In this document: piece after piece, positions 34,473-38,426 of the stretch | Position numbering within the stretch: position 1 is the stretch's first letter | Layout: each line of letters begins with the position of its first letter | Assembly: GCA_011390205.1 (NCBI GenBank) | Contig: JAABSX010000004.1 | Span: forward strand, 1-64,000 | Direction of reading: 5' to 3' | Length of the DNA stretch: 64,000 nucleotides | Source: Microscillaceae bacterium | GTDB lineage: Bacteria > Bacteroidota > Bacteroidia > Cytophagales > Microscillaceae | Notes under the pieces: generated by a model | Told to the model about the DNA's origin: nothing | Database searches by the model: none | The model's input: only the letters and a program-made list of their open reading frames with translations | Made by a program: the position numbers and the translations under genes

Positions 34473-35273
34473 TTAATCTTTCTGGGCAGGCTCATAGATG
34501 ATGGTCTTCTTGCTTGGGTCTGGGCTGGCAAGGTCTATCATCCCGAATCCGTGGTAAGCAAAAGCACCTAGACCGCATTCATACACAAACTGCTGCACTT
34601 TGGGGTCGGCATAGAGTAAAAAAGGAAACGTATATCCCCTTACTTCGTACTTTTGCTGAACCTGCTGGAAGGTGTAAATTCTTGCAAACTTTTTTTCTTG
34701 CTCACGGATTCTTTTGAGGTAAATCTTATCAGGCACTACTTGAAATTTGTAAAAGGAAGCGATTTCGGCTTCTGTAAACCTTTGGCTTCGCTCCATACGG
34801 CTCATAGTAGATTCATAGAGCAAGTCAGAAAAAGTGTCTTCTTCGGGAGAAATAAATTTTTTGGCGTAATATTGATCCCGAGCTGGGTCTGTTAGCACCA
34901 GCGGAGAGATACAGATGCACTTGACTGCTCCACTGAGGTCAGGGTTGGGCTCGGCTTCTATGGAGTGGGGGCTTAAATACAACTGACCTATCTGGATCGT
35001 ATCCCTCTCAAAAATCTGGTTTAAGAGATAGTCTAAAAAGTGTTGGTTGGGAGAAGAAAGCACCAGTGTAACTTTAGAAGAATAAAAATGAAGTCCTTCA
35101 CGGCTGATTTTTGTCTGGCCTTTTAGCCCTGAGAAGTTAAAAAACTCATAGTTTTCATATTGAGCTTCTCCCTCTTCTAGCAGCTCATTAATGAGATTTG
35201 ACAACAAATATTGATGATGAAAAGGTACATTCCCACCACGATTATTCAAAGAAAATACTACTCTTACCCTCAC
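34473..35273 (-). CDS. cas6: Cas6-like protein, orphan
   Basis: 266 aa. The ferredoxin-like double domain is suggested by the N-terminal HHQYLLSNLINELL (19-32) and FFNFSGL (44-50), and by the Gly-rich C-terminal loop GLGAFAYHGFGMI (234-246), the hallmark of Cas6 endoribonucleases that cut CRISPR precursor RNA. No CRISPR array and no other cas gene are in the window. In canonical Cas6 a segment with a catalytic His separates the first helix from the FTFS strand; here only EEGEAQYENYE lies there, so cleavage ability is doubtful. It may act as an RNA-binding protein of another system. Confidence 0.75.
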   Translation of the reverse strand: MRVRVVFSLNNRGGNVPFHHQYLLSNLINELLEEGEAQYENYEFFNFSGLKGQTKISREGLHFYSSKVTLVLSSPNQHFLDYLLNQIFERDTIQIGQLYLSPHSIEAEPNPDLSGAVKCICISPLVLTDPARDQYYAKKFISPEEDTFSDLLYESTMSRMERSQRFTEAEIASFYKFQVVPDKIYLKRIREQEKKFARIYTFQQVQQKYEVRGYTFPFLLYADPKVQQFVYECGLGAFAYHGFGMIDLASPDPSKKTIIYEPAQKD

Positions 35274-35500: not shown

Positions 35501-35576
35501 CCTCACGCCGTTGCCGTGTTCAATCCCGCCGTCTTCTGTGAAGACACGGTGAAAAGTAACTTATCAAAAAAACATA

Positions 35577-35608
35577 AAAAAACCTAACTCACTCGGAGTT
35601 AGGTTTTT
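35577..35608 (-). terminator. Terminator of ychF
   Basis: Perfect stem of 13 bp (35578-35590 with 35596-35608), loop ACTCG, followed on the minus strand by a T-run. It lies about 56 bp past the ychF stop. Confidence 0.88.
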
Positions 35609-35663: not shown

Positions 35664-36761
35664 TTAGACATTGAATCTAAAGTGCATAATATCTCCGTCT
35701 TCTACCACATATTCTTTTCCTTCTACGCCCAGTTTGCCTGCTTCACGGCAAGCGGCTTCGGTTTTGTATTGCTCGTAATTACTCAGTTTGATGACTTCGG
35801 CTCGGATAAAACCTTTCTCAAAATCACTATGAATCACGCTGGCAGCCTTGGGTGCTTTCCACCCTCTCTCAATAGTCCAAGCCCTTACTTCTTTGACCCC
35901 TGCCGTAAAATAAGTGATTAGATTCAACAATGTATAGGCCTCACTGATTAACCTGCTTAGACCTGATTCTTCTAGGCCATATTCTTTTAGGAACTCTACT
36001 TTGTCTTCTTCCTCTGTGAGTTCTGCTATTTCTGCCTCTATGGCAGCACTTACCCTGATGAGTTGGGCGTTTTCGGCACTGATAGAATCACGAAGTGCTT
36101 TCACGAATATATTGTCTTCATGAAGAGATGCCACATCAACATTGGCTACATACAGCACAGGCTTGATGGTGAGGAGGTTTAGCTCTTCTATCCAAGGTTT
36201 TTCTTCATCACTTAGCTCTATTCCTCTTACGTTTTGCCCTGACTCGAGGCGTGTCTTGACCTTTTCATAGGCTTCCATTCTTTTGAGGGCATCTTTGTCG
36301 CCTGTTTTCGCCATTTTTTTGACTCTTTCGGCTCTTTTTTCTACACTCTCTAAGTCTTTAAGCTGTAGCTCTGTATCTATGACCTCTTTGTCACTGACGG
36401 GGTTAATCTTTCCATCTACGTGTACGATGTTTTCATCTTCAAAACACCTTACTACGTGTACGATGGCATCTACCTCTCTGATGTTTGCCAAAAATTGATT
36501 TCCTAGCCCTTCGCCTTTGCTCGCACCCCTAACAAGCCCTGCGATATCTACAAACTCTATGATGGTTGGGATTACTTTTTGAGGGTTTACGAGTTGTTCT
36601 AAGACCTTGAGGCGGGGGTCTGGCACAGTAACCACGCCTACATTAGGCTCTATAGTACAAAAAGGATAATTGGCTGATTCGGCTTTGGCACTTGAGAGTG
36701 CATTAAACAGTGTAGATTTACCCACATTGGGCAGCCCTACTATTCCACATTGAAGACCCAT
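35664..36761 (-). CDS. ychF: Redox-regulated ATPase YchF (OLA1 family)
   Basis: 365 aa, cytoplasmic P-loop protein related to Obg GTPases. G1 is GLPNVGKST, G3 is DIAGLVRGASKGEGLG, and the TGS-like C-terminal part is present (LITYFTAGVKEVRAWTIERG; GFIRAEVIKL). YchF hydrolyses ATP rather than GTP and binds ribosomes; it controls stress responses. Universally conserved single-copy gene of normal length. Preceded by a 105-bp gap from the AI-2E family gene and followed by a strong terminator. Confidence 0.96.
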   Translation of the reverse strand: MGLQCGIVGLPNVGKSTLFNALSSAKAESANYPFCTIEPNVGVVTVPDPRLKVLEQLVNPQKVIPTIIEFVDIAGLVRGASKGEGLGNQFLANIREVDAIVHVVRCFEDENIVHVDGKINPVSDKEVIDTELQLKDLESVEKRAERVKKMAKTGDKDALKRMEAYEKVKTRLESGQNVRGIELSDEEKPWIEELNLLTIKPVLYVANVDVASLHEDNIFVKALRDSISAENAQLIRVSAAIEAEIAELTEEEDKVEFLKEYGLEESGLSRLISEAYTLLNLITYFTAGVKEVRAWTIERGWKAPKAASVIHSDFEKGFIRAEVIKLSNYEQYKTEAACREAGKLGVEGKEYVVEDGDIMHFRFNV

Positions 36762-36865: not shown

Positions 36866-37999
36866 TCAGCCATCTTGTCTGGCAGAAAAAGGTGGCAGAG
36901 GGCTACTCATCTTAAAGATATGATACTGCCGATAGCCCTTGCTTAACTCTATATAAGAGACCCTCAAAATAGTGTAAGTAGGGATGGCAGCAATCATGCC
37001 CAATACCCCCACTACAGCCGCCCCTGCAAAAATAACAATAAATATCTCCAGAGGATGTGCTTTGACGCTTTTTGAAAAAATAATAGGCTGCAATAAGATA
37101 TTATCAATCAGCTGGGCCACGGCAAAGACGGGTACAATCCTGAGCCCTAGAATAAAATAATTATGCAGGTCGGCATCCATCATTCGGGTAGAGACGATGA
37201 CTATCAGACCAAACAAAAGCCCCATGATAGGTCCCAGATAAGGGATAAGATTCACGATGGCCGCAAACACGGCAATGGTCAGGGCATACTTCACGCCGCT
37301 CAGGGTCAGCCCTAGTGCAATGATTGTAAACATAATCATAATCTGTAGAAGCAGCCCGATGAGGTAATTAGAAAGCAGCTTTTCTATCTTATAAATGGTG
37401 GTAATGCCTACTTCAAAATAAGCATTCGGGATAACTGCCAAAAGGCTTCGCCGTATGATACCTTTCTCATAAAGAAGAAAAAACGTGATGAAACTCACTG
37501 CCAAAAGATAAATAAAAATAGTGCCTGTAAACTGCAAAAGTGAATTGAGCAAGGCAGCTATCTGGATACTCTCAATAAAAGACAAGATGGCATCATTGAC
37601 CTCATCAATCAAAAAACCTGACTCGTGCTTTGAGCTGATATTCTGAATAATAAATGCGTCTATTTGGTTCATAGGCTTTTGAAGGCTGGCTATGATTTTA
37701 TTAAACTGAATGCCCTGAAGTACATTGACCTGCTCTATAATCAAAGGCACAAACATCAGTGTAAACAAAAGCGGAATGGCTGCTAATATCAAAAAAGATA
37801 CAAAGACTGCCAGCCAGCGAGGCACTTTTACTCTGAAAAATTCTAAATTGTCTATGTAATCTGTTACAGGTCTTAATATTGATGAAATCACCAATGAAAC
37901 CAATACATATACAATAATATCAGAAAATAACCAAAAGATGGCAAACAATGTGCTTGCTACCAACGCCAAATTTAGACTGGCACGAGGGTGGATAATCAT
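36866..37999 (-). CDS. AI-2E family transporter
   Basis: 377 aa with about eight membrane helices. The N-terminal paired helices and the long loop (about 90-150) lead into a C-terminal pore region with NLIPYLGPIMGLLFG and LGMIAAIPTYTILR, the family signatures. Despite the name, most members have unknown substrates; Na+/H+ exchange has been shown for a few. Separated by a terminator from the PUR-fold gene upstream. Confidence 0.88.
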   Translation of the reverse strand: MIIHPRASLNLALVASTLFAIFWLFSDIIVYVLVSLVISSILRPVTDYIDNLEFFRVKVPRWLAVFVSFLILAAIPLLFTLMFVPLIIEQVNVLQGIQFNKIIASLQKPMNQIDAFIIQNISSKHESGFLIDEVNDAILSFIESIQIAALLNSLLQFTGTIFIYLLAVSFITFFLLYEKGIIRRSLLAVIPNAYFEVGITTIYKIEKLLSNYLIGLLLQIMIMFTIIALGLTLSGVKYALTIAVFAAIVNLIPYLGPIMGLLFGLIVIVSTRMMDADLHNYFILGLRIVPVFAVAQLIDNILLQPIIFSKSVKAHPLEIFIVIFAGAAVVGVLGMIAAIPTYTILRVSYIELSKGYRQYHIFKMSSPLPPFSARQDG

Positions 38000-38090: not shown

Positions 38091-38426
38091 CTAATCCCAT
38101 TTTAGCTCATCATCCACTTCATCTGTCTTATTAGACTCTGTGTATTTATCTTCTATCTGGGTGAAATCAAAATCTGGCATTAAATCCGTTTTTACATGAG
38201 AAACCGCCTCTTGGATGGCTTCTAAAAACTTCTCAAAATCTTCTTTATACAAGAAAATCTTATGCTTTTCATAAAAAAATCCACCTTCTTTGTACTTCTT
38301 CTTACTTTCTGTAATCGTAAGGTAATAATCATTCGAGCGTGTTGATTTCACATCAAAGAAATATGTCCTCTTCCCAGCACGTACTCTTTTCGAGTAAAGT
38401 TCGTCTTTTTCTCTATTTTCTTCCAA
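38091..38426 (-). CDS. PUR-fold DNA/RNA-binding protein (DUF3276)
   Basis: 111 aa, soluble. The pattern KRTYFFDVKSTRSNDYYLTI followed by KIFLYKEDFEKFLEAIQEAV is that of the small Bacteroidota PUR-alpha-like proteins, which bind single-stranded nucleic acids. Acidic C-terminal tail. A minus-strand TACCTTTG box at 38450-38457 fits a -7 element just before the start. Confidence 0.88.
   Translation of the reverse strand: MEENREKDELYSKRVRAGKRTYFFDVKSTRSNDYYLTITESKKKYKEGGFFYEKHKIFLYKEDFEKFLEAIQEAVSHVKTDLMPDFDFTQIEDKYTESNKTDEVDDELKWD

Follow-up and report, generated by a model that had tools for sequence, protein, structure and literature searches.

A Cas6-like protein lacking the canonical catalytic region, probably a CRISPR-independent RNA-binding protein of the Cytophagales

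Within the analysed stretch of 64,000 nucleotides (hereafter the window), a reverse-strand open reading frame (34473..35273, -) encodes a Cas6-like protein of 266 amino acids that starts with GTG, is built of two RAMP/RRM-type domains and misses the region of the catalytic Tyr, His and Lys. Cas6 proteins normally cut the CRISPR guide RNA (i.e. crRNA processing). The membership of this reading frame in Cas6 is far above chance, with matches over the curated cut-offs of Pfam Cas_Cas6_C (PF01881, 5.5e-20) and NCBIfam TIGR01877 (1.8e-20), and a match to PADLOC Cas6b at 6.3e-34. The AlphaFold2 model of the protein (23-sequence alignment, pLDDT 91.9, pTM 0.88) found its top PDB match in PH0350 (3qjj: Z 25.7, 2.0 Å over 226 residues), followed by the Cas6-related protein 3ufc of P. 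furiosus (Z 25.6), 5yi6 (Z 25.2) and the P. furiosus Cas6 3i4h (Z 24.1), while the next group after the Cas6 structures drops to a Z score of 14.8; Foldseek agrees with this ranking. The tandem RAMP/ferredoxin-like domains were recovered over residues 1-250 (Z up to 25.7), together with a Gly-rich loop near the C terminus (RAMP motif V, GLGAFAYHGFGMID, 34530..34575, -), in which all four Gly of GLGAFAYHGFGM are invariant across the family. The Cas6 fold and the Gly-rich C-terminal loop proposed by the original prediction are thus borne out by the profiles, the model, the PDB matches and the invariant Gly, and the structural comparison that it had suggested returned Pyrococcus Cas6-like proteins as the best matches, at a Z of about 25.

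The segment that connects helix 1 to the FNFS strand (approximately residues 35-47; 35133..35171, -) falls, by alignment, lengths and secondary structure, some 12-15 residues short of its counterpart in CRISPR-linked Cas6, and it contains no His. In an alignment with 28 CRISPR-linked Cas6 of Bacteroidota the window protein reads 'LEEGEAQYENYEFFNFS' where the latter read 'YAERLHEQGY..FKLFTFS', and the orthologue family as a whole carries a block deletion exactly at their LH(E/D/N)xGY motif. The stretch between the helix-1 motif and the F-x-F-S strand amounts to 18-26 residues in 113 orthologues, as compared to 37-39 in the 22 CRISPR-linked proteins in which the segment could be measured; a His was present in this segment in all of these 22, versus 15 of the 113 orthologues, where it is sporadic and varies in position. 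The shortened, His-free segment noted beforehand therefore stands as described. No conserved His, Tyr or Lys was found in it among the 113 orthologues, and no substitute catalytic residue was identified, nor could a candidate triad be assigned. What remains is the invariant H20-Q21 pair, which belongs to the ancestral helix-1 motif (HQ is also found in P. furiosus Cas6). In the P. furiosus enzyme, the catalytic His, plus a Tyr and a Lys, are essential (PMC3150331). On the basis of the alignment, catalysis has likely been lost in the Cas6-like family; the loss of the His is in itself no proof of inactivity, since crenarchaeal (Sulfolobus) Cas6 cleave without it (PMC3652601).

The landmarks associated with RNA binding have been retained. 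In addition to the Gly-rich loop, the protein possesses a beta2'-beta3' hairpin (KKFARIY...EVRGYTFPF, residues 194-218; 34620..34694, -), a structure that positions the RNA in other Cas6 (PMC3727216), and in which K194, K195, R198, E210, R212 and Y214 are invariant in the family (the positions of R198 and R212 being occupied by Lys or Arg in CRISPR-linked Cas6). F47/S48, S123/P124 and K51 are likewise invariant. By analogy, single-stranded RNA would be bound in the cleft between the two RRM-like domains, through the Gly-rich loop and the basic hairpin.

Among characterised proteins, the closest counterparts are the Pyrococcus Cas6nc (PhCas6nc PH0350, 3qjj/3qjp; PfuCas6nc, 3ufc), which are the best structural matches (Z 25.7/25.6, rmsd 2.0-2.2 over 226-227 residues) and rank among the best profile matches as well, although only 20-22% identical to the window protein. 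These have been reported to be inactive homologues of Cas6, with PhCas6nc binding unstructured RNA in the cleft between its domains (PMC3727216; PMC3652601); the window protein, too, combines a Cas6 fold with the absence of the canonical catalytic residues. The Pyrococcus proteins were, however, studied as binders of CRISPR repeats in archaea that have CRISPR, whereas the present family is an order-wide chromosomal marker (found also where no Cas1, RAMP or Cas5 was detected) whose catalytic loop is deleted. P. furiosus Cas6 (3i4h at Z 24.1, 3pkm at Z 23.6) has the two-RAMP fold in common with the family, as well as the Gly-rich loop and the PF/Y-x-HQ start of helix 1. The family differs from it in having no loop with the catalytic His and no conserved Tyr and Lys in helix 1 or ahead of the F-x-F-S strand. 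The CRISPR-linked Cas6 of Bacteroidota (PF01881 matches, e.g. L026, L040 and L060) are homologous processing enzymes, yet keep LH(E/D/N)xGY (in 22/22 examined), and those compared form a separate clade.

The genomic context of the gene is a housekeeping one, with no array or cas operon associated. Upstream lie ychF (35664..36761, -), an AI-2E family permease (36866..37999, -; Pfam PF01594, 8.3e-37) and a DUF3276 protein with a non-ATG start (38091..38426, -; Pfam PF11680, 5.6e-34), all of them conserved neighbours. An inverted repeat (AACCTAACTCCGAGTGAGTTAGGTT) followed by a T run, read from the sequence (35574..35608, -), is the probable ychF terminator, and the Cas6-like gene is therefore probably transcribed alone in the window. 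Across 81 loci (80 named ones plus the window, a sample that favours close relatives) the neighbours keep a fixed order near the Cas6-like gene, with YchF present in 80, DUF3276 in 76 and the AI-2E permease in 72; among 25 loci of greater diversity, fewer than half have YchF next to the gene. Since one genome of the order (locus L175) keeps DUF3276-AI-2E-YchF without the Cas6-like gene, the latter was probably added to a neighbourhood that already existed.

The start codon is another shared trait: at the conserved start position in 112 loci of the family we counted GTG 77 times, TTG 23 times and ATG 10 times (two loci were unresolved), so that non-ATG starts account for 100 of the 112, and an upstream in-frame ATG occurs in only one of them. 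Along the same neighbourhood, ychF starts with ATG in 92/92 cases and the DUF3276 gene with GTG or TTG in 75/75 (the window, 38091-38426 (-), and L081-L160 being among the loci). The GTG/TTG start of the Cas6-like gene suggests weak or controlled translation, while autoregulation is speculative. We considered the conserved 5' leader as an autoregulatory site and rejected it: its conservation (0.70) is no evidence, because the ychF leader is conserved to the same degree (0.70). In 57 Cyclobacteriaceae-type loci a leader ATTGTTTCAnTTTTATTTTT directly precedes the GTG, and a promoter-like GTAnTTTTGC lies at about -90. An Rfam search of the window for a structured RNA partner found only a tRNA.

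The family is widespread within a single order. Its profile matched 129 of 241 genomes of the order (called Cytophagales from its named relatives), in single copy, in 13 families and with E values of 1e-69 to 1e-130. In a sample of 395 genomes of the phylum all matches at 1e-114 or better fall in this order, and those outside the family, none stronger than 1e-24, are ordinary Cas6. A scan of GTDB species genomes yielded 397 matching stretches, the named ones all belonging to Cytophagales (Algoriphagus, Echinicola, Belliella, Fulvivirga, Sporocytophaga, Microscillaceae and others). The orthologues group in one clade apart from the CRISPR-linked Cas6 compared (SH-aLRT 100). Their reading frame is open and their pairwise dN/dS has a median of 0.056 (range 0.015-0.091, 49 pairs); the family is under purifying selection. 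As for the occurrence of the gene in relatives without CRISPR, which the original prediction had proposed to look for, no Cas1, RAMP or Cas5 (the three profiles by which absence of class 1 systems was scored) was found in 55 of the 129 orthologue-bearing genomes, which speaks for it. In one of these (G469, a single contig), no CRISPR array was detected in 1.2 Mb (27% of the genome) by a scan with five positive controls.

The genome of the window is not CRISPR-free. The window itself and the next 20 kb of its contig hold no CRISPR array, and no Cas1, RAMP or Cas5 profile matches were found on that contig, in agreement with the earlier statement that neither an array nor another cas gene lies within 64 kb. 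Elsewhere in the same genome (G000), contig C2 carries an array, cas2, cas1 and a type III-B-like RAMP (L048, G000:C2, 47-237, 578-883, 1527-2528, 2971-3834 and 6118-6396), with 3 repeats seen at a 76-nt period, and contig C110 begins inside another RAMP gene; the two represent a type III-B-like locus that the assembly has split. The C2 part of the locus has an AAA ATPase as a neighbour, along with a transposase-like ORF at the end of the contig. Of the two observations that had been held to count against the original prediction (a complete type I or III system elsewhere in the genome, and a catalytic residue at another place in the fold), the former was thus encountered in fragmented form and the latter was not. 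A profile search of the genome for cas genes detected the Cas6-like gene as its only Cas6, and a role in trans is possible in this particular strain, given the III-B locus with its array and no other detected Cas6.

Such a role, generalised to the family, constitutes the strongest competing explanation: the protein would serve type III arrays located elsewhere, either by binding pre-crRNA repeats uncut or by cutting them with other residues, and would hand them to Cmr/Csm. It is consistent with the situation in the window's genome and with the view that most type III loci rely on a Cas6 supplied in trans (PMC12669027), as well as with the higher frequency of Cas1 (71/129 versus 26/112) and RAMP (24/129 versus 6/112) in genomes with the orthologue than in those without it, an enrichment for which lineage and genome reduction may account. 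Against it, CRISPR loci do not accompany the gene, over two fifths of the orthologue-bearing genomes yielded none of the three class 1 profiles, and 21 of the 24 genomes that combine the orthologue with type III RAMPs have another Cas6 (a second PF01881 match or a divergent subfamily), the three exceptions (G000, G004 and G499) being drafts. An initial indication that type III loci lack a Cas6 of their own (by PF01881, the orphan stood alone in 15/24) was discarded as an artefact of limited sensitivity, as most of these genomes do have a divergent Cas6 (PADLOC 4e-45). This divergent type III subfamily (PADLOC PDLC01381/PDLC02104), missed by PF01881, adjoins type III loci in the order (L172:10770-11546 (-); L167:15376-16107 (-); L170:3739-4401 (+); L171:4237-4962 (-)); as exemplified by the L172 protein, it is homologous to the orphan family but represents another Cas6 subfamily. 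In a further genome that also has the orphan Cas6 (G005, L161 4953-12225), we observed a type I-B operon comprising a WYL regulator, Cas8b, Cas7b and Cas5b, with a Cas6 candidate just before cas1. The trans-acting reading does not explain the order-wide pattern and, with another Cas6 in 21 of the 24 type III genomes, service to a distant array is weakened as a general function; we hold it to be unlikely.

Slightly less probable still is an active ribonuclease whose catalytic site has been rebuilt, as in Sulfolobus Cas6 with its Lys and Arg, and which would cut specific cellular RNAs. Several basic or polar residues are invariant (H20, K51, K194, K195, R198 and R212) and could furnish such a site, and the crenarchaeal enzymes, active without a His (PMC3652601), provide a precedent; nevertheless, the catalytic loop has been deleted rather than substituted, no triad is assignable, and H20/Q21 occupy the ancestral helix-1 position at which P. 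furiosus Cas6 has HQ too. As to a functionless remnant of a lost CRISPR locus in the course of decay, for which the absence of an array and of cas genes nearby might be invoked, it is refuted by the purifying selection (dN/dS about 0.06), with frames open in the orthologues and retention throughout the order, and we assign it a negligible probability.

We therefore favour, with a probability of roughly 70%, the reading of the gene as a domesticated Cas6 without canonical cutting residues, maintained in single copy independently of CRISPR and acting as a putative RNA-binding protein. A function outside CRISPR, one of the two options offered by the original prediction, is well supported by the order-wide single-copy retention, the genomes without detected class 1 cas genes and the stable housekeeping neighbourhood, while the other option (service to a distant array in trans) lost ground. 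According to this domestication scenario, a crRNA-processing Cas6 would have been captured once by an ancestor within the Cytophagales; its canonical cutting residues would then have been lost, the gene being kept as a single-copy chromosomal gene with a CRISPR-independent function. Judging from the conserved fold and residues, the family probably functions as a general RNA-binding protein, whose target may be a cellular RNA (mRNA or small RNA) on which it would act as regulator, chaperone or stabiliser, without cleavage. For the more specific proposal of a core, CRISPR-independent and non-cleaving RNA regulator with cellular targets of its own, expressed at a low level from a non-AUG start, possibly autoregulated and spread across much of the order, we consider the odds to be slightly better than even.

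Cas6 counts as a CRISPR marker, and TIGR01877, whose cut-off the gene passes, names such genes 'CRISPR-associated endoribonuclease Cas6'. A search of the open-licence literature returned no earlier account of a Cas6 family free of CRISPR. The range of the family includes culturable genera (Algoriphagus, Echinicola, Belliella and Fulvivirga). If the domestication of this Cas6 is true, CRISPR counts in Bacteroidota would need correction, and the family, order-wide and kept without CRISPR, would clearly exemplify the conversion of a Cas protein into a housekeeping RNA-binding protein.
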